The notes beneath the pieces are model-generated. The model had not been told where the DNA came from, ran no database searches, and saw nothing but the letters and a program-made list of their open reading frames with translations. This document shows, piece by piece, positions 34,804 to 44,543 of a DNA stretch of 64,000 bases. Source of the stretch: Cellulomonas sp. JZ18 (lineage in GTDB: Bacteria > Actinomycetota > Actinomycetes > Actinomycetales > Cellulomonadaceae); contig NZ_CP045245.1 in the NCBI RefSeq assembly GCF_009720485.1, positions 2,480,001 through 2,544,000 of the forward strand, given 5' to 3'. The position numbers were made by a program, and so were the translations under genes. Within the stretch, counting starts at the first letter, position 1. Each line of letters begins with the position of its first letter.

Positions 34804-35379
34804 ATGACGGCACCGCTGTGGATGACCGGGGACGAGGCGGCGGACCGCCTGCTCGACGAGGACCCCTTCGCCCTCCTGCTCGGCATGCTGCTCGACCAGC
34901 AGGTCGCGATGGAGACGGCGTTCGCCGGGCCGGCGAAGATCGCGGAGCGCATGGGCGGCCTCGACCCGCACCGCGTCGCCGGCGCCGACCCCGAGGAGTT
35001 CGCCGCGCTGTGCGCGACGCCGCCGGCGGTCCACCGCTACCCCGGCTCGATGGCGAGCCGCATCCAGGCGGTGGCGCGCGCGGTGGTGGACGAGTACGAC
35101 GGCGACGTCACGCGGCTGTGGACGGACGGCGACCCCGACGGCCCCACCGTCCTGAAGCGGCTCAAGGCTCTGCCCGGGTTCGGCGACCAGAAGGCGCGGA
35201 TCTTCCTCGCGCTGCTCGGCAAGCAGCGCGGCGTCACGCCCGCGGGCTGGCGCGAGGCCGCCGGTGCGTACGGCGACGAGGAGTTCCGGTCCATCGCCGA
35301 CGTGCGCGACCCGGTCTCGCTCGCCCGCGTCCGCGAGACGAAGAAGGCCGCGAAGGCGGCCGCCCGCGCGGCCCGCTGA
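34804..35379 (+). CDS. HhH-GPD-family DNA glycosylase-like protein
   Basis: This 191-residue protein belongs to the helix-hairpin-helix base-excision glycosylase superfamily. The N-terminal part carries LLGMLLDQQVAMETAFAGP, and the hairpin-helix LPGFGDQKARIFLALLGKQ lies at ~120-140. The C-terminus is a basic Lys/Arg/Ala tail (KKAAKAAARAAR) that may bind DNA. It is shorter than Nth or AlkA and lacks a [4Fe-4S] cysteine cluster. It matches an uncharacterised actinobacterial subgroup. The base specificity is unknown. Confidence 0.85.
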   Translation: MTAPLWMTGDEAADRLLDEDPFALLLGMLLDQQVAMETAFAGPAKIAERMGGLDPHRVAGADPEEFAALCATPPAVHRYPGSMASRIQAVARAVVDEYDGDVTRLWTDGDPDGPTVLKRLKALPGFGDQKARIFLALLGKQRGVTPAGWREAAGAYGDEEFRSIADVRDPVSLARVRETKKAAKAAARAAR

Positions 35380-35518
35380 CACCACGCCGCCGGGTCCACC
35401 GGTCCACCGACCGCCGCGTCGACCCGTGGACGGGCCCGGCGCTCGTCCTTCCGGCGGAGCGTCGCACCCACCTGGGGGACGAGGCGCCCGGACCCCCCGG
35501 TTCGCGAGGATGGTCCGC

Positions 35519-36778
35519 ATGAGCACGCCCACGCCGCCGGCGCCCACCCCGCACCCGCCCGCCCCGGGACCGTCCGCGTCCCCGCCCGCCGTCACGCCCG
35601 TGCCGGCCGCCGAGCGCGCGGTCGCGCCGGACGTCGCCCGCGGCCTCGCGCTGCTGGGCATCGCGATCGCCAACTCCGTGCTGCACCTGTGGGGCGTCGA
35701 GGTCGGCGTCGGCAGCCGCCCGGTCGACGGCTCACCCGTCGACCGGCTCGTCAACGGCGTCGTGTCGCTCTTCGTCGACCGCCGGACCATGCCGATGTTC
35801 GCGCTGCTCTACGGGTACGGCGTCGGGGTGGTCGTCCGGCGGCGTGCCGCCGCGTGGGTGCCGTGGCCCGACTGCCGCCGTGACCTGCTGCGACGCGCCG
35901 CGTGGCTCGTCGCGTTCGGCGTGGTGCACATCCTCCTGCTGTTCGCCGGCGACATCCTCGCGATCTACGGCGTGGCCGGCCTCGTCGCCGTCGCCTTCGT
36001 CCGCGCGCCCGGGCGACGGATCGCCGTCGTGGGCGTCGTGGCGCTCGTGCTGTCCGGTGTGCTCATGGGCGCGGTCCAGGCGCTGAGCGTGTGGGCGGCG
36101 GACCAGCCCGACCTCATGGGCCAGGGCGACGTGATGGGCGGGGCAGAGGGATCGGTCCTCGGCGCGATGCTGCTGCGCTCGTGGTCCGTGCTCATCGCGC
36201 CGTTCGGGGCGGTCGCGGCGCTGCCGCTCGTGCTCCTGGGCCTGTGGTTCGCCCGGCGCGGCGTCCTCGAGCAGCCCGCGGCGCACCTGCCGCTGCTGCG
36301 GCGCTGGGTCGTGGGCGGCCTGACGGCGAGCGTCCTCGGCGGCCTGCCGATGGCCCTGGCGGTGGCCGAGGTGTGGACGCCGACGGCCGGTCAGCTGTTC
36401 GGCGTCGCCGCCCTGCACGAGGTCAGCGGGACCGCCGGTGGCGTCGCGTTCGCCGCCGGCGTGGCCTGGCTCGTGGCCGCCCGCGGCACGACGGTCGCGA
36501 CGCTCGGACCGGTCGGGCGCGCGCTGCGCGCCGTCGGCACGCGGTCGCTGACCTGCTATCTGCTCCAGTCGGTGCTGTTCGTGCTGCCGCTCGCCGCGTG
36601 GGCGGGCGGGCTCGGGGAGCGCCTGTCCTCGGCCGGCGTGGTCGCGTGGGCCGTCGGCGTGTGGCTCGTCACCGTGGCGGTCGCCGTCGCGCTCGAGCGC
36701 GTCGGACGCCGCGGCCCGGCCGAGGCGCTCTACCGCCGTCTGGTCTACCGCCCGGGCGCACTCGTCGCCGCCCGCTGA
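35519..36778 (+). CDS. DUF418 family membrane protein (YeiB-like), copy 1
   Basis: This 419-residue integral membrane protein has a Pro-rich ~40-residue N-terminus and about ten helices. YeiB/DUF418 marks are visible: DVARGLALLGIAIANSVLH near the start, FVDRRTMPMFALLYGYG, and the C-terminal RSLTCYLLQSV and RRGPAEALYRRLVY. The role of the family is not established; a transporter has been suggested. The last 34 bp overlap the convergent CPBP gene. A second DUF418 gene lies at 40447, and the two bracket the peptide/ABC/CPBP set. Confidence 0.88.
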   Translation: MSTPTPPAPTPHPPAPGPSASPPAVTPVPAAERAVAPDVARGLALLGIAIANSVLHLWGVEVGVGSRPVDGSPVDRLVNGVVSLFVDRRTMPMFALLYGYGVGVVVRRRAAAWVPWPDCRRDLLRRAAWLVAFGVVHILLLFAGDILAIYGVAGLVAVAFVRAPGRRIAVVGVVALVLSGVLMGAVQALSVWAADQPDLMGQGDVMGGAEGSVLGAMLLRSWSVLIAPFGAVAALPLVLLGLWFARRGVLEQPAAHLPLLRRWVVGGLTASVLGGLPMALAVAEVWTPTAGQLFGVAALHEVSGTAGGVAFAAGVAWLVAARGTTVATLGPVGRALRAVGTRSLTCYLLQSVLFVLPLAAWAGGLGERLSSAGVVAWAVGVWLVTVAVAVALERVGRRGPAEALYRRLVYRPGALVAAR

Positions 36779-37530
36779 GGTGCAGTCGCCTCGGGCGGCG
36801 TGCCCGTGCCCGACGCGGGCCGTGCCGTCGGGAGGTCGGCCCGTCGTCGTGCGACGAGGAGGGCGAGCGTCACCGCCGCGGCCAGCAGGACGGCGTCGAG
36901 GGTGTGCGCGACGGCCAGGGGCACCTCGGCCGGCAGCGCCCCCCACAGGGTGTTGGACGCCAGGTGCACCACGACGGGGGCGAGCAGGCTCCGCGCGCAC
37001 CACGCGAGCACGAACAGGCCCACCCCGTAGCCCAACCTGTTCGCGGCGACGGCGGCGGACTGCTCGCCGTGGGCGAGCGCGAACGCGACGGCGGTCGCGC
37101 CACCGGTGAGGACGAGCGCGCGCCGGCTGCCCGCGAACCTCGACGCCGCCAGCAGGGCCACGGGCGCGCCGCGGAACAGCACCTCCTCCAGGGCGACGGC
37201 GGCGGCGGCACCCGCGGTGGTGAGGCCGTGCGCGACCGCCGGCAGCACGACGACGGGCAGCGCGAGCCACGCCACGCGGCCGGCGGGCCCGCCGTACGCG
37301 GGCCGCCGGTCGAGGACGTCCCCGGGGCGGCCGGTGACGACGTACACGACCGCGAGGACGAGCAGCACCACGCCGAGGGCGCCGACCACTCCCGGCAGCC
37401 CCTCCCCGCCGGCCGGCAGCACCATGACCCACCAGCCGGCGACGAGCAGGAAGCCGAGGGCTGCGCCGGTGGTCGTGACGGCGGACCACGCCACGGTGCC
37501 ACGCGCCCGCGGGAGCTCGGGGACGCTCAC
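36745..37530 (-). CDS. CPBP-family intramembrane metalloprotease
   Basis: This 261-residue multi-pass protein of the CAAX protease/bacteriocin-immunity (Abi, CPBP) family has motif 1 ALEEVLFRGAPVALL with the Glu pair and Arg, motif 2 FALAHGEQS with His, and motif 3 VVVHLASNTLWG with His and Asn. These residues place the likely active site in the membrane. The GTG at 37530 overlaps the ABC-2 permease stop (GTGA). In Gram-positive bacteria such proteins confer self-immunity to bacteriocins or process prenylated/peptide substrates. Here it ends an operon that includes an ABC transporter and lies downstream of a Trp-rich secreted peptide gene. Confidence 0.88.
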   Translation of the reverse strand: MSVPELPRARGTVAWSAVTTTGAALGFLLVAGWWVMVLPAGGEGLPGVVGALGVVLLVLAVVYVVTGRPGDVLDRRPAYGGPAGRVAWLALPVVVLPAVAHGLTTAGAAAAVALEEVLFRGAPVALLAASRFAGSRRALVLTGGATAVAFALAHGEQSAAVAANRLGYGVGLFVLAWCARSLLAPVVVHLASNTLWGALPAEVPLAVAHTLDAVLLAAAVTLALLVARRRADLPTARPASGTGTPPEATAPQRAATSAPGR

Positions 37531-38288
37531 CGCGCCTCCCGGCGCAGCTGCACCCACCACCCGGCGGCGAGGGGCAGCACGTACCAGAGCGTGAGCGACG
37601 ACAGCAGCGCCGGGACCGGGGTGGACCCGCCCAGGAGCGCGTCCTGGACCGCGCCCGACGAGAACCACGTCGCGCGGTCCCCGAGGGCGACGGCGAGGAG
37701 GGGGTCGACCGCGAGCGGCACGAGCACCACGACGAGCACCGCGACCGGTGTCCAGGGCAGCAGCGCACCCCACGCGAGCCCGAACACCACGCCCGTCATG
37801 CCGGCGGCGAGGAGCGGCGCGAGCCCGGAGCCCGCGTCCTGCAGCCGCAGGGGCTCGCCCCGGACGGCCAGGACGAGCACGGACACGAGGAGGAACACGA
37901 CCACGGTCACGGCGAGCAGGGCGGCCCCGGTCAGGAGCGTCGCGACCACCTTCGCGCCGAGCACGCGGGAGCGCCGCGGCACGAGCCAGAACGTGACCAG
38001 CGCGGTCCGCTGGCTCCACTCGGACGTCATGACGAGCACGCCGAGCAGCGGCAGCGCCACCGCCAGGAGCGCGGCGGGCAGCGCGGCGAGCGCCAGCGTC
38101 GGCTCCGGGGACGCCACGAGGACGAGGACCAGCGCGATGGTGCCCACCGCGAGGAACGACGCGATGAGCGTCAGCGCGGCTCGCGTGTCGAGGCACTTGC
38201 GGATCTCGACCCGTACCAGGCGGGCGAACGGCACCGGCGTGTGCTCGCCCACGGCCGACGGCTGGGTGACGACTGCGGCGCGGTTCAT
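37527..38288 (-). CDS. ABC-2 type permease
   Basis: This 253-residue membrane subunit has about six helices and starts RLVRVEIRKCLDTRAALTLI, which is typical for ABC-2 permeases that pair with a separate ATPase. MTSEWSQRTALVTFWLVPRR is another family-like segment. The ATG at 38288 overlaps the ATPase stop (ATGA) and its own stop overlaps the CPBP start (GTGA). It likely forms an exporter or immunity pump with the ATPase. Confidence 0.85.
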   Translation of the reverse strand: MNRAAVVTQPSAVGEHTPVPFARLVRVEIRKCLDTRAALTLIASFLAVGTIALVLVLVASPEPTLALAALPAALLAVALPLLGVLVMTSEWSQRTALVTFWLVPRRSRVLGAKVVATLLTGAALLAVTVVVFLLVSVLVLAVRGEPLRLQDAGSGLAPLLAAGMTGVVFGLAWGALLPWTPVAVLVVVLVPLAVDPLLAVALGDRATWFSSGAVQDALLGGSTPVPALLSSLTLWYVLPLAAGWWVQLRREAR

Positions 38289-39246
38289 CCCGCCCTCCCC
38301 TCGTCGGCCGGGGTGAGCCGGACGGCGCGCTTGCCGGCCCGGAACTCCCCGCGGGTCCGTTCCAGGACGAAGTCGGCCAGCTCCCGCACGACGGGGCGGA
38401 GCTCGACGAGGACGACCCCCTCCGCGGCGGCCACCCGGCCGACGTCGACGGGGTCGCAGCGGCACACCAGACCCGCGGTGTCCGGGACGGCGTGCACGCC
38501 GGCACGCGCGAGCGCGCCCGCGAGCCGCACGTCGTCGAGGCTGCGGCAGAGCGTCAGTCCGTCCTCGCGCAGCACCTCGTCCAGCGGCCGGTCCTCGACG
38601 ACGCGTCCGCGGTCGATCAGCACGACCCGGTCGACCAGCCCGGCCACCTCTGCCATGAGGTGGCTCGAGAGCAGGACCCCGCCGCCGCGCGCGGCGAAGT
38701 CGGTCACGACGCCGCGCACCCAGCCCACGCCCTCGGTGTCGAGGCCGTTGAGCGGCTCGTCGAGGACGAGGTAGCGCGGATCCCCCAGGAGGGCGATGGC
38801 GAGCGCGAGCCGCTGTCGCATTCCGAGCGACAGAGCCCCGCCCGCCGGCGGCCCACCCGGCCGAGGCCGACCGCCTCGAGCATCCGGTCGGCGCGTTCGG
38901 GCGGCTCGCCGATCGTGGCCGCGACGAGCGCGACGGTCTCACGGACCGTGCGGCCCGCGTGCACGGCGGACGCGTCGAGCAGCACCCCGACCGCGCGCCC
39001 GGCGTTGGGCAGCCGGGCCACGGGCACGCCGTCGAGCAGCGCGGTGCCGGCGTCCGGACGCGAGAGCCCGCACAGCATGCGCAGCGTGGTCGACTTCCCG
39101 GCGCCGTTCGGCCCGAGGAAGCCGACGACCTGGCCAGGACGGACCTCGAAGGAGACGTCGTCCACGACGGTGCGGCGCCCGTACCTGCGGGTGAGACCGA
39201 CGGCACGCAGCCCTTCCGCGGGCCGGCGGGGTGGTGCGGACGTCAT
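38285..39246 (-). pseudogene. ABC transporter ATPase, frameshifted near 38836-38839
   Basis: Walker A GPNGAGKSTTLRML lies around residue 45. The frame then breaks after GRVGRRRAG. The continuation in another frame holds ALSLGMRQRLALAIALLGDP (signature region), Walker B YLVLDEPLNGLD and the H-loop SSHLMAEV. One added base at the CCCC run 38836-38839 (G on the coding strand) gives ~321 residues. The ATG at 39246 overlaps the upstream small membrane gene, and the stop overlaps the permease start. The C-terminal part resembles BcrA/antibiotic-type ATPases. The break is probably a sequence error. Confidence 0.82.
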
Positions 39247-39545
39247 GCCGACCGGCCCTCGAGCACGAAGCGCACGGCGGTGACGACGTAGACACCGCCC
39301 CAGACCACGAACGCCACGGACGCGCGCGGCCACCGCTTCATCAGGGGGTCGACGGACGCCACCCCCGCGAAGAGGAGGACCCACTTCAGCGCTCCCGCCG
39401 GCAGGTCCCAGCTCGCGTCGACGAACAGCGCCGCCGGGTAGGCGAGAACCGTGACCAGAACGGCCACGAGAACCGTCGCCCGCCGCGGGCGCGGTCGCGG
39501 CCTGTCGGGTGCCGCATCGTCACGCCTGTCGTTCACCGTCGTCAT
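39243..39545 (-). CDS. Small membrane protein preceding ABC transporter
   Basis: This 100-residue protein has an Arg/Pro-rich N-terminus (~22 residues) and three hydrophobic segments (ATVLVAVLVTVLAYPAALFV, ALKWVLLFAGVASVDPLM, ASVAFVVWGGVYVVTAV). It overlaps the ATPase gene as ATGA and starts just after a strong hairpin, so it heads the transporter unit. No family is recognised. It might be an accessory or immunity protein, by context only. Confidence 0.72.
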   Translation of the reverse strand: MTTVNDRRDDAAPDRPRPRPRRATVLVAVLVTVLAYPAALFVDASWDLPAGALKWVLLFAGVASVDPLMKRWPRASVAFVVWGGVYVVTAVRFVLEGRSA

Positions 39546-39560
39546 TCCACCCTCCGTGTG

Positions 39561-39599
39561 GAATGCACCCCGGGCGCGTCGAGCGCCCGGGGTGCATTC
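39561..39599. terminator. Strong 17 bp hairpin terminator between peptide gene and transporter unit
   Basis: GAATGCACCCCGGGCGC / GCGCCCGGGGTGCATTC is a perfect 17 bp stem with loop GTCGA. It lies 44 bases after the peptide gene stop and 16 bases before the small membrane gene start. It should end or attenuate the peptide transcript and limit read-through. Confidence 0.8.
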
Positions 39600-39643
39600 T
39601 TGTCAGTCGTCCTGGAAGAACGTCTGCGGTGTCAGGGAGACGA

Positions 39644-40099
39644 TCAGAAGATCGCGTCCCAGATCGCGCGCACCAGCTCCTCGATGGAGAAGGACGCGAG
39701 CGTCTGCAGGAGCCACCGGACCGCGCTGTTCAGGTCGTTCCACCACGACACCACGGCATTCCGCAGCGCGTTGTAGCTGCGCTTGGCCTGCTGCACGAAC
39801 CAGTTCCACGCGGCGCTCGCGTTGTTCTTGATCCAGTTGATGATCGGACGCAGCCGCTTCTCGGACGTCTGCCCCGCGGCGGACGCCTCACCGACGGTGC
39901 CGGCGCCCTGCGAGAGCGCACCCACCGACGAGGACGTCAGCGAGGACGCGGGAGCCGACGCCCCCGCCACCACGACGACCCCCTGCGACGACTGCGCCGT
40001 CACGGCCGTGCTCGCGGCACCCGCACCCGAGAACGCAGCGGCGCCGAGAGCGACGACCGCCGTTGCCCGCCACAGACGTGCCCTGTAACCTCGATCCAT
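39644..40099 (-). CDS. Secreted Trp-rich amphipathic peptide precursor
   Basis: This 151-residue protein starts at the ATG at 40099 (GTG at 40102 also possible) behind GAAGGGA. Residues ~1-30 form a signal peptide (RARLWRATAVVALGAAAFSGAGAA). About 50 residues of Ser/Ala/Gly/Val linker follow. The C-terminal ~70 residues from KRLRP onward are clearly different: seven Trp, nine Lys/Arg against four Asp/Glu, with helical amphipathic segments such as IINWIKNNASAAWNWFV, NAVVSWWNDLNSAVRWLL and IEELVRAIWDAIF. No cysteine is present. I know no family. Size, charge and context (ABC transporter plus CPBP downstream) resemble a membrane-active peptide precursor. Activity is inference. Confidence 0.75.
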   Translation of the reverse strand: MDRGYRARLWRATAVVALGAAAFSGAGAASTAVTAQSSQGVVVVAGASAPASSLTSSSVGALSQGAGTVGEASAAGQTSEKRLRPIINWIKNNASAAWNWFVQQAKRSYNALRNAVVSWWNDLNSAVRWLLQTLASFSIEELVRAIWDAIF

Positions 40100-40128
40100 C
40101 ACACTTCCCTTCGCGAATGTGTGAGCCC

Positions 40129-40181
40129 GCCAGCCACTGCCATGGCTGGCACGTCACGCCGGGCGCATCGCGCTCGGCGTG
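40129..40181 (-). promoter_or_regulatory. Structured leader of the Trp-rich peptide gene: two adjacent hairpins
   Basis: GCCAGCCA-CTGCCA-TGGCTGGC (40129-40150) and CACGCCGGGCGC-ATC-GCGCTCGGCGTG (40155-40181) are back-to-back stems in the presumed 5' untranslated region, ending 30 bases before the start codon. The remaining gap to 40446 has an unusually AT-rich stretch (40286-40330) that probably holds the promoters. Confidence 0.5.
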
Positions 40182-40446: not shown

Positions 40447-41652
40447 GTGAACGCTCAGATTGCCGGCGCAACGGCGCCGCGGGCGGCCGACGCACCGGTT
40501 CCGGTGGCCCTCGCAGAACGCGACCTCGCCGTCGACGTCGCACGTGGCGGCGCGCTGCTCGGAATTGCGCTCGCCAACGTCGTCGCCCATGTCGGTGCCG
40601 CGGCCGTCGGGCTGGGCCTCTACCCCGACCCGGCGTCCGTCACCGCGCTCGACCGGCTCGCGGCGGCCGTCGTCGTGCTCACCGTGGACCGCACCACCCT
40701 GCCCGTCTTCGCCCTCCTCCTCGGCTGGGGCCTGGCGCGGGTCGTCGCGACGATGCGCGCCCGCCACGCTCCGGACGCGGAGGTGCGCCGCCACGTCCGC
40801 CGCCGGTGCGCCGCGCTCGCCGCGCTCGGCGTCGCGCACGGCGTCCTGCTCTTCGACGGGGACGTGCTGCTGCTCCTCGGCCTCACCCTGCTCGTCGCGC
40901 TCGCCCTCGTGCGTGCGTCGCCGCGGGTCCTGGTGTGGACGGGCGTGACGACGTGGCTCGCCGGCGCCCTGCTGCTCGGCGGCCTGGACGCGCTCCTCCT
41001 CGCGGACGCGTCAGCGGGCGCAGCGGCCCCGGCGACCAGCGGGGGCGAGGCGCTGGCCGAGCGTGCGGCGTCCTTCGCCGCCTCGGCGCTGGTCGCGCCG
41101 GTCCACCTCACGACCGTCCTCCCGGCGGCGCTCCTCGGTGTGTGGTGGGCGCGGACCGGTCGCCTCGATTCCGCCACGCCCGTGGGTCCCGCGCGCACGC
41201 GGGTCGTCGCGCTCGTCCTGGCCCTGGCCGCCGGCGCCCCGATGGCGGCCGCTGTCGGAGGGCTGTGGTCGCCCGGCCCGGTCGGCGCGCTCGTCGCCTC
41301 GTCGGCCCAGCTGCTCGCCGCGCCCGTCGCCGCGGGGACCTCGGTGCTGCTGGTCGTGGCCGCGGTGCGGGCCGGGGCCGTGCCGCGGCCCGCCGTCACC
41401 GCGGCCGCCGCCCTCGGTGCCCGCTCGCTCACGGTCTACCTCGCGCAGTCCGCGCTCTTCCTCGTGCTGCTGACGCCGCCGACGGGTGTGCTGGGCAGCG
41501 TGGGCATGGCCGCGGGCGTGGTCGTCGGGGTGGGCGTGGCCGCGGCCACCACCGCCCTGGCGGTCGGGCTCGAGCGCGCGGGGGTGCGGGGCCCGGCCGA
41601 GTGGTTCCTCCGGCGGGTCGCCTACGGCCGCGGCCGGCACGACCGGACCTGA
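40447..41652 (+). CDS. DUF418 family membrane protein, copy 2
   Basis: This 401-residue multi-pass membrane protein is paralogous in layout to the gene at 35519: DVARGGALLGIALANVVAH at the first helix, TVDRTTLPVFALLLGWG, ARSLTVYLAQSALF, and the ending RGPAEWFLRRVAYGRG. It starts at a GTG behind GGGGGAA. It is transcribed divergently from the secreted Trp-rich peptide, and its leader region is shared with it. The function of DUF418 proteins is unsettled. Confidence 0.88.
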   Translation: MNAQIAGATAPRAADAPVPVALAERDLAVDVARGGALLGIALANVVAHVGAAAVGLGLYPDPASVTALDRLAAAVVVLTVDRTTLPVFALLLGWGLARVVATMRARHAPDAEVRRHVRRRCAALAALGVAHGVLLFDGDVLLLLGLTLLVALALVRASPRVLVWTGVTTWLAGALLLGGLDALLLADASAGAAAPATSGGEALAERAASFAASALVAPVHLTTVLPAALLGVWWARTGRLDSATPVGPARTRVVALVLALAAGAPMAAAVGGLWSPGPVGALVASSAQLLAAPVAAGTSVLLVVAAVRAGAVPRPAVTAAAALGARSLTVYLAQSALFLVLLTPPTGVLGSVGMAAGVVVGVGVAAATTALAVGLERAGVRGPAEWFLRRVAYGRGRHDRT

Positions 41653-41660
41653 GGCCGCGG

Positions 41661-42443
41661 TCAGCGCTCCTCGGAGGCCAGCGCGTCCTTCCACCCCTGC
41701 GCGTAGGCCTCGGCCGACCCCTGGTGGAACATGTCGTCCGGTCCGGTGCGCACGAGCACGCGCGCACCGGGCCCGTCGTCCTCGCTCACCAGGTGCGCCG
41801 CTCCGCGCACGACCGCGACGGGACGACCCGCGGCCTTGCCCTTGACGAGCTCGGCGGCGCTCGCGAGCTCGTCGGCGACCGCGGCCACCGTCATCGTCAG
41901 CGGACGCCCGAACGTGTCGAGCTGACCGCGCAGGTCGTCGAGCACCTGGACGCCCGCGGCGCCGATCGCGAGGTCGGTGACCCCCTGGCGCCAGGGCCGC
42001 CCCGCGGTGTCGGTCACGACGACGCCGAGCCGCACGCCGAACGCGTCCTGCAGCCCCGCGCGCAGCGCGCGGGCCGACGCGTCGGGGTCGTGGGGCAGCA
42101 GCAGCACGGTGCCCTCGGGCGTGTTGGACGCGTCGACGCCGGCCGCGGCCATGACCAGCCCGAGGCGGTTCTCGACGATCCGCGTGACGCCACCAGCGTG
42201 CTCACGGGTCGCCACGACCCGCACGGTCTCGTCGGTGATCGCCTGCTCGCGGTCGTCGGCGGCCACGACGCGCCCCTCGGCCTTGGAGACCACCTTGCTC
42301 GTCACGACGAGGACGTCACCGTCCGCGAGCGCGTGCGCGGGGTCGGGGTCGGCACGCAGCGCCGCCGCCAGCAGCGCGACGAGGTCGTCCCCCGGGACGA
42401 CCTCGGGCACGCCGTCGGGCGCCCACAGCCGCAGCTCGCCCAC
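41661..42443 (-). CDS. cofE: Coenzyme F420-0:L-glutamate ligase CofE (single-domain FbiB N-terminal part)
   Basis: CofE adds the poly-gamma-glutamate tail to F420-0 using GTP. The 260-residue protein has the family pattern [38 protein letters not shown] and [24 protein letters not shown]. It ends after the CofE domain and lacks the C-terminal flavin-reductase-like domain of mycobacterial FbiB, so the dehydro-F420 reductase step must be done elsewhere if the PEP route is used. It starts at a GTG one base after the stop of the upstream F420-dependent oxidoreductase, so the two are co-transcribed. Confidence 0.94.
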
Positions 42444-42444
42444 G

Positions 42445-43446
42445 TCAGCGCACCAGCTTCGGCAGCACGTCGCGGCCGAAGACCTCGATCCACTCGCGCT
42501 GGTTGCGGCCGACGTTGTGCAGGTAGATGCGGTCGAAGCCCAGGTCGACGTACTTCTGGATCTCCGCGCGGTGCGCGTCGGGGTCCGCGGAGATCACCAT
42601 GCGGCCCTGGAAGTCCTCGGGGCGCACGAGCCTGGCCATCTGCTCGAAGTCGAACGGCGAGCGGATGTCCGCCTTGGGGAACTTCATGCCGCCGTTGGGC
42701 CACTCGTGCATCGCGTTCGCCAGCGCCTGCTCGTCCGTCTCCGCCCACGACAGGTGCAGCTGCAGCACCTTGGGCATCGCGTCCGGGTCCTTGCCCGCCT
42801 CGCGCGCGCCCTCGGCGAACTTGCCGAACAGCCCGGAGATCTTCTCCAGGGGGGCACCGACCGTGATGATGCCGTCCGCGTGCTTGCCGGTGCGCTTGGC
42901 CGTGACCGGACCGGCCGTGGCCACGAGGATCTCGGGCGCCTCCTCCGGCATGGTCCACAGGCGCGTCGACTCGAGCTTGTAGAACTGCCCGGCGTGCTTG
43001 ACGTCCTTGCCCGCGAGCGACGACGTGAACAGCTTCTTGATGATCTCGATCGCCTCGAACATGCGGTTGATCCGCTCGGGCGCCTCCGGCCAGTACCCGG
43101 CGACGACGTGCTCGTTGAGCGCCTCGCCGGACCCGAGGCCGAGCCAGTGCCGGCCCGGGTACATGGCCGCGAGCGTCGCGGACGCCTGCGCGACCATCGC
43201 CGGGTGCCAGCGGAACGTCGGCGCGGTGACACCGGGGCCCAGGTCGCCGGTGGTGCGCTCCCCCACGGCGGTGAGCACGTTCCAGACGAAGGACGACTGG
43301 CCCTGCGCCGGGACCCACGGCTGGAAGTGGTCGGCGGCCATGACGCCGGAGAAGCCGTGCTCCTCGGCGTACGCGGACAGCTCGACCGCCTCGCGCGGGT
43401 GGAACTGCTCGAGCATCGCCGCGTACCCGACCGTCAGCCCAGCCAT
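42445..43446 (-). CDS. LLM-class F420-dependent oxidoreductase (glucose-6-phosphate dehydrogenase-like subfamily)
   Basis: This 333-residue luciferase-like TIM-barrel enzyme has [10 protein letters not shown] near the N-terminus, [20 protein letters not shown] (~105-125) and [22 protein letters not shown] at the end, the pattern of the Fgd-related TIGR03557 subfamily. Such enzymes use F420 as hydride carrier, often with sugar phosphates. The substrate is not proven here. The ATG is at 43446. It is directly upstream of cofE in the same unit, a link between making and using F420. Confidence 0.9.
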
Positions 43447-43526
43447 CCGTCGTCCTCCCCGTGGTGCCTCGTCGCGGCGCCCGGGCGCCGCCCCGTCGTG
43501 ACGATACGCGCTCGTCGGGCCGGGGC

Positions 43527-44543
43527 TCACGGCAGGAGCAGCACCGCGCCCGCCTTGTGGCCGGCGTCGACGTAGGCGTGCGCAGCGGCGGCCTCCTCCA
43601 GCGGCCACGTGCGGTCGACGACGCCGCGGACCGCACCGTCCGCGGCCAGGCCGAGCAGGTGCACCGCGTCGGAGGCCTTGTCGGCGGCCGGTCGCAGACC
43701 GGTGAAGGCGATCGCAGCGGTCCGGCCCCGGGCGAGGGGGCGCAGCGCGGTGCGCACGAGGATCCCCGCGCTCGGCACCGTGGTGAGGTACAGGCCGCGC
43801 GGCGCGAGCAGGTGGCGGCAGCGGCGGAACGAGCTCGCGCCGACGGCGTCGAGGACGACGTCGAACGTCCCACGGACGCGCTCGACGGGTGTGACCGTGC
43901 GGTCGACCACGGTCGCGGCGCCGAGCGAGCGCACGAGCGCGACGTGGTCGGGGCCGCAGACGCCGGTCACGTCCGCGCCGAGGTGGGCCGCGAGCTGGAC
44001 GGCCGCGGCGCCGACGGCACCCGCGGCCCCATGCACGAGCAGGCGGGTGCCCGGCCGCACGTGCGCGTGGTCGCGCAGGAACGGCAGCGCGGTCGACCCG
44101 CCCTCGACGAGCGCGACGGCCTCGTGCGTGCCCACGCCGTCGGGCACGGGGACGACCGACGCCGCCGGCACGCGCACGTGGCGGGCGTACCCGCCCATGG
44201 CGATGCCGGTCTGGGCGACGACCCGGTCGCCTCGCTGCACGCGGATCACGCGTTCCCCCACCGCGACGACGCGTCCGCCGACGTCACCGCCCAGGACGCG
44301 GTTCCGCGGCCGCCGCAGGCCGGTGGCGAGCCGTGCGAGGGGCGGGTCGCCGGCGCGGAAGGCCGTCTCCGCGCGGCTGACGGCGACGGCCTCGACGGCC
44401 AGGACGACGTCGTCGGGCCCGGGGACGGGCATCGGCACCTGCGTGACGGCGAGCACGTCCGGCGGGCCGTACCGGTCGTAGGCGACGGCGGTCGTGGTGG
44501 TCGCCGCCGGCGTGGCGGGGCGGGGACGGGCGGGAGCGGGCAC
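43527..44543 (-). CDS. Medium-chain dehydrogenase/reductase (quinone-oxidoreductase-like)
   Basis: This 338-residue MDR-superfamily protein has an N-terminal GroES-like domain (YDRYGPPDVLAV, RVLGGDVGGRVVAVGERV), then the NAD(P)-binding motif LVHGAAGAVGAAAVQLAAHLG at ~165-185. It lacks the zinc-ligand cysteines, as in quinone oxidoreductases. The start is a GTG behind AGGAGGCCGCC, 5 bases from the site. The first ~15 residues are a Pro/Ala/Thr-rich tail. A 12 bp tandem repeat occupies the DNA just upstream. Confidence 0.88.
   Translation of the reverse strand: MPAPARPRPATPAATTTTAVAYDRYGPPDVLAVTQVPMPVPGPDDVVLAVEAVAVSRAETAFRAGDPPLARLATGLRRPRNRVLGGDVGGRVVAVGERVIRVQRGDRVVAQTGIAMGGYARHVRVPAASVVPVPDGVGTHEAVALVEGGSTALPFLRDHAHVRPGTRLLVHGAAGAVGAAAVQLAAHLGADVTGVCGPDHVALVRSLGAATVVDRTVTPVERVRGTFDVVLDAVGASSFRRCRHLLAPRGLYLTTVPSAGILVRTALRPLARGRTAAIAFTGLRPAADKASDAVHLLGLAADGAVRGVVDRTWPLEEAAAAHAYVDAGHKAGAVLLLP

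Follow-up and report, generated by a model that had tools for sequence, protein, structure and literature searches.

Layout of the locus

Here, we analyzed a stretch of 64,000 nucleotides from the genome of Cellulomonas sp. JZ18 (contig NZ_CP045245.1, 2480001–2544000; this whole stretch is called the window, and positions are counted from its first letter), in which five genes lie on the minus strand between 40102 and 36745. They encode, in this order, a secreted peptide precursor, a small membrane protein, an ATP-binding cassette (ABC) ATPase, a permease and a CPBP protease, and we consider it likely that the locus as a whole specifies a Sec-secreted pro-bacteriocin with layered self-protection. 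The host genome is a single contig of 4.04 Mb and belongs to the same order as Glutamicibacter. The minus-strand series described in a first-pass annotation of the window was found at 36745–40102, and the reported overlap of its last four genes is visible as ATGA/GTGA junctions, where the ends of the small-protein, ATPase, permease and CPBP genes overlap. The features are as follows:

39644..40102, minus strand: secreted peptide precursor, 151–152 aa (open reading frame (ORF) anatomy, codon-position GC, homologues)
39647..39856, minus strand: putative mature peptide of roughly 70 aa with 7 Trp and a positive net charge (the region conserved in family alignments; putative boundary at E-K-R)
39561..39599, no strand: perfect inverted repeat with a 17-bp stem and a 5-nt loop, separating the peptide gene from those downstream
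39243..39545, minus strand: small membrane protein of 100 aa, a candidate for immunity (ORF and hydrophobic segments)
38285..39246, minus strand: ABC ATPase, which a frameshift in the assembly divides into one part from 39246 to about 38842 and another from about 38833 to 38285 (family matches, alignments of relatives)
37527..38288, minus strand: ABC-2-type permease, 253 aa (weak Pfam match; 31–47% identity to permeases at the same place in loci L030, L033 and L128)
36745..37530, minus strand: CPBP (Rce1-like) intramembrane protease, 261 aa (EExxxR, FxxxH and HxxxN all present)

The precursor has 151 residues when counted from the ATG at 40099 and 152 from the GTG at 40102. Its GC content at codon positions 1/2/3 is 0.61/0.58/0.90, and the high value at the third position shows that the frame is coding. 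Judged by eye, a basic start is followed by a hydrophobic segment running to an A-x-A-like stretch near residue 30, after which comes a low-complexity linker, enriched in Ala, Ser, Thr, Val and Gly and about 50 residues long. The sequence S-E-K-R then leads into a C-terminal domain of about 70 residues (approximately 82–151) with seven Trp. The last 74 residues hold these 7 Trp, carry a net charge of +4 and, when laid out as a helix, exceed 500 shuffled versions in amphipathicity (p 0.002). Among all stop-to-stop frames of at least 60 aa in the window, the precursor ranks first in the Trp content of its last 75 residues, with 7 compared to 6 for the next. A Sec-type signal (by eye) and a C-terminal cationic peptide (by charge count) are both present, so the secreted 151-residue precursor that had been described, with seven Trp and a positive net charge in its last 70 or so residues, was borne out. 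We infer that the boundary of the mature peptide lies at E-K-R.

The strong hairpin claimed between the peptide gene and the remaining genes could be located at 39599–39561, where a perfect 17-bp stem encloses a 5-nt loop with no T run after it. The small protein downstream of it had been described as having three helices. Two strong hydrophobic segments (residues 24–42 and 77–95) agree with this description, while the third helix, corresponding to a weaker stretch between them, is plausible and not certain. No Pfam or NCBIfam family matched this protein.

In contrast to the earlier description, the ATPase is not a single open gene. The ATPases of relatives align to 39210–38842 in one frame and to 38833–38321 in another, and a whole-genome search likewise returned the window ATPase as two pieces with the break at 38842–38833, whereas the ATPase of the sister species G059 is intact in one frame of 327 aa. 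The break may reflect either decay or an error of sequencing; the completeness of the window assembly is 96.66%, compared with 99–100% for most relatives listed. The second piece has the lantibiotic-protection model TIGR03740 as its best model and the first piece drrA, and TIGR03740 is also the best NCBIfam model for the ATPase of the Glutamicibacter locus described below (E 6.8e-52). The model's cut-off of 309.75 bits is reached neither by the window pieces (78.3 and 70 bits) nor by the Glutamicibacter protein (176.3 bits). LanFEG and BcrAB are names of self-protection ABC transporters of the kind that this model describes. In a PADLOC search, matches were to the ATPase only.

The ABC-2 permease was recovered as predicted, through a weak match to ABC2_membrane_4 (Pfam, E 0.55) and through identities of 31% to the permease of L030, 33% to that of L033 and 47.5% to that of G059. 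The same holds for the CPBP intramembrane protease, which matches PF02517 with E 1.8e-8 (35.0 bits against a cut-off of 22.4) and contains all three motifs as EEVLFR, FALAH and HLASN. The frames of the peptide, small protein, permease and CPBP genes are open and show strong codon bias. Searches of the window for tRNA genes and Rfam families gave no match, and neither did a search of a phage collection.

A patchy peptide family and its recurrent neighbours

When the window precursor was searched, both at full length and as its C-terminal part, against 5.8 billion proteins, it matched itself alone. The C-terminal part gave two convincing matches among 396 genomes of the order, its own included; the other was a Glutamicibacter protein (genome G286, E 3e-9) with 35% identity over 92 aa. 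The use of the Glutamicibacter sequence as query yielded three more proteins and a Micropruina metagenome-assembled genome (MAG), and profiles then reached a second copy in the window genome itself and a Streptomyces-like genus, so called after named plasmid records that carry related peptides. At E ≤0.001, profile matches were obtained in 14 of the 245 Glutamicibacter-family genomes, from which G887 (a 926-aa frame) was dropped, and in 21 of 199 genomes of the Streptomyces-like genus, 8 of which we discounted as tape-measure-like. When 296 genomes spread evenly over the phylum were searched, the window genome alone was returned, which marks the family as patchy. Among 118 relatives, 34 genomes matched at E ≤0.1, the own genome included. 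The weak matches among them, at first ascribed to linker composition, included two members, G059 and G067, among the 11 loci checked besides that of the window. In the window's genus the family occurs in four or more species (its own, G015, G059 and G067).

The types are connected by profile–profile comparison. The window type (A12) scores 51.6 and 64.2 against the Streptomyces types (A9 and A10) and 79.8 against the PadR-linked type (A13), while the highest scores among 60 column shuffles per comparison were 20.0, 17.9 and 21.1, and those with reversed profiles were 13.5, 11.6 and 19.7, respectively. The match falls in the C-terminal domain. Loci L096, L097, L104 and L108 stand outside this comparison and are counted as members by single hidden Markov model (HMM) matches (E 4e-5 to 5e-7). 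Of 29 profile-chosen loci scanned, 28 hold a member (L095 none), a ratio that is high by construction, since the loci were picked because the profiles matched them. In 23 aligned precursors, a hydrophobic N-terminal segment and a linker precede the conserved domain (starts and signals by eye). The sequence [EQ]KR stands directly before this domain in 7 of 8 window-type precursors (P0006 lacks it), making it a candidate cleavage site in the window-type branch only.

The peptide falls outside every Pfam and NCBIfam family. The 23 precursors gave weak single matches, with best E values of 0.0077 and 0.002 and at most two members per family, and no bacteriocin family was among their Pfam matches at E ≤0.1. 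An RxLR effector match and other weak Pfam matches were rejected as lying far below cut-off. Frames of about 400 aa that match profile positions of about 7–56 (the 8 of 21 genomes mentioned above; L034, L036 and L038) were set aside as tape-measure-like, as was L095 (a 902-aa frame). PDB matches to FtbJ (E 6.5e-5) and to a tail tape measure (E 0.018) were taken as probably convergent amphipathic repeats. In PDB 9j1k chain J and in the phage-like loci L034, L036 and L038, the weak match of the peptide profile is to repeats of tape-measure-like proteins, probably convergent amphipathic helices. A description of the family was not found in the literature searched, although most subscription journals lie outside it, so an earlier description is possible; the term "bacteriocin" is absent from the main text of a synteny study of Streptomyces orphan proteins (PMC13118837).

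Several further members were observed. The second copy in the window genome lies at genome positions 991794–992249 (L047:7795–8250; profile match at about 992046–992240), between a tuf gene and the ribosomal S10 operon, and faces a PadR gene and a small membrane protein. Its relative in the genus is in G015 (2 of 78 genomes, own included), and G015 and G067 both have relatives of the second copy with the same two partners. Locus L090, at a contig end of G1004, carries two tandem peptide copies of the PadR-linked type. The members in L111–L113 are on Streptomyces plasmids, annotated as "hypothetical protein", and each is followed by a small membrane ORF (in L111 and L112 by the criterion given below, in L113 by eye).

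The neighbours of the peptide were compared between loci, with gene tables of the relatives made by a simple frame-picking script (the L099 permease was missed by the script and located separately). Window-type loci were defined as those whose peptides have [EQ]KR, plus L094, a broken copy close to that of L086; the window, L030, L033, L086, L087, L088 and L094 were fetched, the neighbourhoods of P0004–P0006 being outside this set. ABC genes are present in 7/7 of these loci, and a CPBP gene with full motifs in 6/7. In the wider family, an ATPase of the right kind (E ≤1e-58) lies within 3 kb of the peptide in 12 of 28 loci, namely the seven just listed and the Streptomyces-like L048, L098, L099, L100 and L101, or in 13 of 30 when L128 (yes) and L129 (no) are added. 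By gene density in 14 genomes, such an ATPase would be expected within 3 kb of a random place in 2.6–5.2% of cases; these genomes were mostly picked for having ABC neighbours, and the density figure alone was used. A CPBP gene with all three motifs occurs in 6 of 32 loci, each of the window type and none in L128–L130, while that of L094 is mostly lost. The suggested pairing of peptide homologues with ABC and CPBP genes holds among the window-type loci fetched (ABC 7/7, CPBP 6/7) and is less general in the wider family (ABC within 3 kb in 13/30).

The gene order varies. Compared with the window, where it is peptide, small protein, ATPase, permease and CPBP, Glutamicibacter has peptide, CPBP, PadR, small protein, ATPase and permease, and the Micropruina MAG peptide, CPBP, small protein, ATPase and permease. 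The Streptomyces-like L048, L098 and L099 share peptide, small protein, ATPase and permease with the window in the same order. A PadR gene and another small membrane protein accompany the second copy and the peptides of L089, L127 and L129, and L091 has PadR. Overall, 30 of 34 loci have some partner (ABC genes, a small membrane ORF directly downstream as judged by the criterion below or by eye, or PadR with a small membrane protein), while L090, L091, L092 and L093 lack one or could not be judged. Membrane proteins of the immunity or transport type thus recur beside the peptide. A grouping of these genes beyond chance is indicated by the same gene kinds beside the E 3e-9 homologue in another family and beside the same-site homologue in the same genus.

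The downstream small membrane gene was evaluated separately in 27 loci (L088, L093, L094, L096 and L127–L129 being outside). An ORF of 60–150 aa with at least two hydrophobic segments starts on the same strand at most 260 nt downstream of the peptide in 15/27 of them, whereas among 287 control genes from these loci 12 are followed by one (Fisher p 1.2e-11). Three of the 12 negatives (L097, L102 and L113), as well as L096, have an ORF with two to three helices by eye. In an alignment of nine of these small proteins, some cut to the likeliest start codon by judgement, three Trp are invariant, and each hydrophobic segment has one of them within it or close by. Since such a gene is at least as general downstream of the peptide as the ABC genes are, it may be the core immunity gene. 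Ten of 118 relatives matched the window small protein at E ≤0.01, own included. A possible relative of it was seen in G006 (C1:3737302–3737553; L014, L130; E 8.9e-6), where no peptide gene was found in the surrounding 12 kb.

Perfect stems of at least 12 bp occur within 120 nt of the stop codon in 13 of 27 peptide genes, the window included (a count with no chance control), the stem of the window being among the longest of the 27. A 14-bp stem also follows the G059 peptide (by eye).

In G059 (L128), the peptide, a 96-aa membrane protein, the ATPase and the permease lie in the order of the window and between the same flanking genes, at a site bounded by an HhH-GPD-type gene and an F420 gene. 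On one side the flanking gene is 81.6% identical to its window counterpart, which ends at 35376; on the other, identities to the two window genes at 41661–43608 are 80.8% and 91.8%. The cassette probably goes back to the separation of the two species. The permease identity given above (47.5%) and those of the two ATPase parts (60% and 54%) are intermediate, and the peptides are only 27% identical. This gradient (27% for the peptide, 47–60% for the pump, 81–92% for the flanks) shows that at this site the peptide diverges faster than its neighbours, as it would in an arms race. CPBP and K-R go together in the comparison of the window with G059, which suits a link between them without proving it. 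The presence of a same-site cassette in G059 raised our confidence in a bacteriocin.

Two paralogous DUF418 genes on the plus strand (35363–36778 and 40447–41652, 43% identical) flank the cassette on the opposite strand, the former overlapping the end of the CPBP gene. Neither was matched in the G059 same-site locus at E 1e-20, suggesting that they were gained, or lost there, separately from the cassette.

A proposed pro-bacteriocin and competing explanations

Combined, the anatomy of the precursor, the homology of the family, the recurrent partners and their order, the faster divergence of the peptide at one site and, in two relatives, a peptide lost ahead of its pump form the firm part of our interpretation, and from them we infer the processing site, the membrane activity, the killing and the choice of immunity gene. 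The precursor would leave the cell by the Sec route, with signal peptidase removing about 30 residues. A protease might then cut at [EQ]-K-R, in this branch, to free a cationic, Trp-rich, amphipathic helical peptide of about 65–70 residues, which is predicted to insert into and permeabilize the membranes of competing, probably related, bacteria. Self-protection may come in three layers: the small membrane protein encoded right after the peptide, an ABC pump that would clear the membrane of peptide, and the CPBP protease, which could degrade the peptide or serve its maturation. The hairpin is proposed to act as a leaky attenuator or as a stabilizer of the mRNA 3′ end, by which the peptide would be made in excess of the immunity genes.

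With a Sec-type signal of its own, the precursor is unlikely to need the pump for export, and protection is the more probable role of the pump. Accordingly, the original view of the C-terminal segment as a peptide of a signal/linker precursor, with the other genes serving export, processing or protection, gains from the partner pairing of the window-type loci and loses the pump as exporter. Two relatives are informative in this respect: the peptide gene of L088 contains an in-frame stop codon, and L094 is missing a portion of the peptide together with most of CPBP, while ATPase and permease are whole frames in both. Selection for immunity would be expected to leave the pump in place once the peptide is gone.

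Several observations weigh against a bacteriocin with this organization. A frameshifted ATPase is odd for a pump-dependent producer unless it is a sequence error, and an intact peptide beside a split ATPase is the reverse of the decay in L088 and L094, which counts against the interpretation in its simple form; the split would matter less if the small protein and CPBP suffice or if the frameshift is an error. No ABC gene lies within 3 kb in 17 of 30 loci, and the complementary rate of 13/30 is biased upwards because the profile seeds were largely ABC-linked. The [EQ]KR site is found in 0 of 18 non-window-type members examined, and the same-site peptide of G059 also lacks K-R. G059 lacks CPBP as well, as no EExxxR motif was found in L128. 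Despite a like place and make-up, no profile similarity connects the small protein of the window with its Streptomyces-type counterparts, and BLAST gave no match between it and the 96-aa protein of G059. The window member matches no bacteriocin family in Pfam or NCBIfam, with scores far below cut-offs, and no PDB chain named bacteriocin was among the matches at E ≤10. Finally, SilX shows that CPBP genes need not give immunity and can act in signaling, as described in the available text of one study (PMC9298176).

A decaying bacteriocin locus that is losing its pump through the ATPase frameshift is possible, though doubtful, and would be compatible with the pro-bacteriocin proposed here. The ATPase is split as assembled and whole at the same site in G059, and decay has also occurred in L088 and L094, there in the peptide. 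In contrast, the open frames and strong codon bias of the other four genes speak for a maintained locus, and in a high-GC genome one isolated indel may stem from faulty sequencing.

We consider it unlikely that the product is instead a secreted peptide signal or a surface-active developmental peptide acting on kin, in regulation, aerial growth or wetting, with the CPBP and ABC proteins processing, clearing or sensing it. The PadR genes in the Glutamicibacter cluster, beside the window genome's second copy and in L089, L127, L129 and L091 would fit such a role, as would the CPBP protein SilX, thought to process a Streptococcus signal peptide according to the text available (PMC9298176), and the lack of a pump within 3 kb in 8 of 13 Streptomyces-like loci. 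The members are, however, divergent and patchy (2 of 396 genomes of the order and 1 of 296 of the phylum, own included), and at one site the peptide outpaces its neighbours in divergence. A recurrent receptor gene could still lie among the other neighbours.

An action on eukaryotes (plant cells, protists or fungi), in the manner of AMEP412, appears very improbable. The best NCBIfam model of the window peptide is indeed that of AMEP412 (NF040841; E 0.002), a peptide that was obtained from culture supernatant, is predicted to be helical and elicits a hypersensitive response in tobacco (PMC6661057, in the text available). This match reaches 18.4 bits against a cut-off of 45 and is found in 1 of 23 members, and we rejected membership of that family; the term "signal peptide" is absent from the main text of the AMEP412 paper (PMC6661057), and the immunity-like genes point to bacterial targets. 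Least probable of all, and already disfavoured by recurrence, is a hydrophobic envelope or stress protein beside an unrelated ABC/CPBP operon: a strong hairpin parts the peptide gene from the rest and 17/30 loci have no ABC gene nearby, but the same gene kinds recur with the peptide across families in differing orders, and small membrane ORFs are enriched downstream of it.

Beyond the pro-bacteriocin of the window, there is in our estimation an even chance that the members constitute an undescribed, actinobacteria-wide family of Sec pro-bacteriocins. Such a family would combine a low-complexity pro-region, a Trp-rich helical killing domain that diversifies faster than its neighbours and small membrane immunity proteins of two or three helices; one branch would use a kexin-like [EQ]KR site, some lineages would add an ABC pump and CPBP, and the Streptomyces small proteins with three invariant Trp would form a new family. 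To our knowledge, few unmodified bacteriocins of Actinomycetota have been described. If true, this family would be a source of testable and synthesizable peptides of about 65 residues, each with a presumed antidote gene adjoining it, and would span Streptomyces-like genomes, Streptomyces plasmids, Glutamicibacter and the window's genus. It would also supply a natural substrate with a conserved cleavage motif for the CPBP proteases encoded in bacteriocin operons, the role of which is disputed.

Comparison with known systems

In comparison with LanFEG/BcrAB-type transporters, the Glutamicibacter ATPase is nearest to TIGR03740, is accompanied by an ABC-2-type permease and is encoded beside the peptide gene. 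Unlike in such systems, its score is 176.3 of 309.75 bits and no lanthipeptide genes were recognized. The CPBP gene with all motifs inside a putative bacteriocin operon resembles the Abi/CPBP proteases of bacteriocin clusters, for which roles in immunity, maturation or signaling are given in the available text (PMC9298176).

The published descriptions of propionicin T1 and thoenicin 447 are the basis of the next comparison. In the available text (PMC5756557), propionicin T1 is a Sec-secreted, positively charged actinobacterial bacteriocin with a 96-aa prepeptide and 65 mature residues, and an ABC gene 68 nt downstream is thought to give immunity. The peptides described here are alike in their actinobacterial host, charge, Sec signal and nearby ABC gene, and the immunity role that we assign to the ABC genes follows the same reasoning as for that downstream gene. 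Propionicin T1 differs in having no pro-region, so no second cleavage, and in that description no CPBP or small membrane gene is mentioned. PAMP of Propionibacterium jensenii, with a 198-aa precursor that is activated by added proteases (PMC5756557, in the text available), resembles, by description, the anatomy proposed here in its signal, a long pro-region and an active C-terminal part that is released extracellularly by a cut at a basic site. Actifensin loci of Actinomyces also pair the peptide with ABC genes, according to the available text (PMC6989792). Both the AMEP412 family (NF040841) and the present peptides are small, secreted and helical, with a weak profile match in 1/23 members; AMEP412 is predicted to have one transmembrane stretch (PMC6661057, available text).

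The aureocin A53-like peptides are likewise short, cationic, Trp-rich and helical and have varied membrane-protein partners; they destabilize membranes, as is predicted for the peptides described here (PMC11580447, in the text available). A sequence match to PDB chains of that kind was not found. According to the same text, the aureocin A53-like arcanocin and arachnicin, mined from Actinomycetota, are leaderless and active on translation, and no leaderless bacteriocin had been characterized in Actinomycetota before that study (PMC11580447). The precursors described here carry a leader and a linker, and we therefore rejected their assignment to the leaderless class. As far as the available text allows the comparison, the aureocin A53-like leaderless peptides of Actinomycetota are the nearest known relatives in kind, set apart from the signal- and pro-region-bearing peptides of the present family by the absence of a leader.

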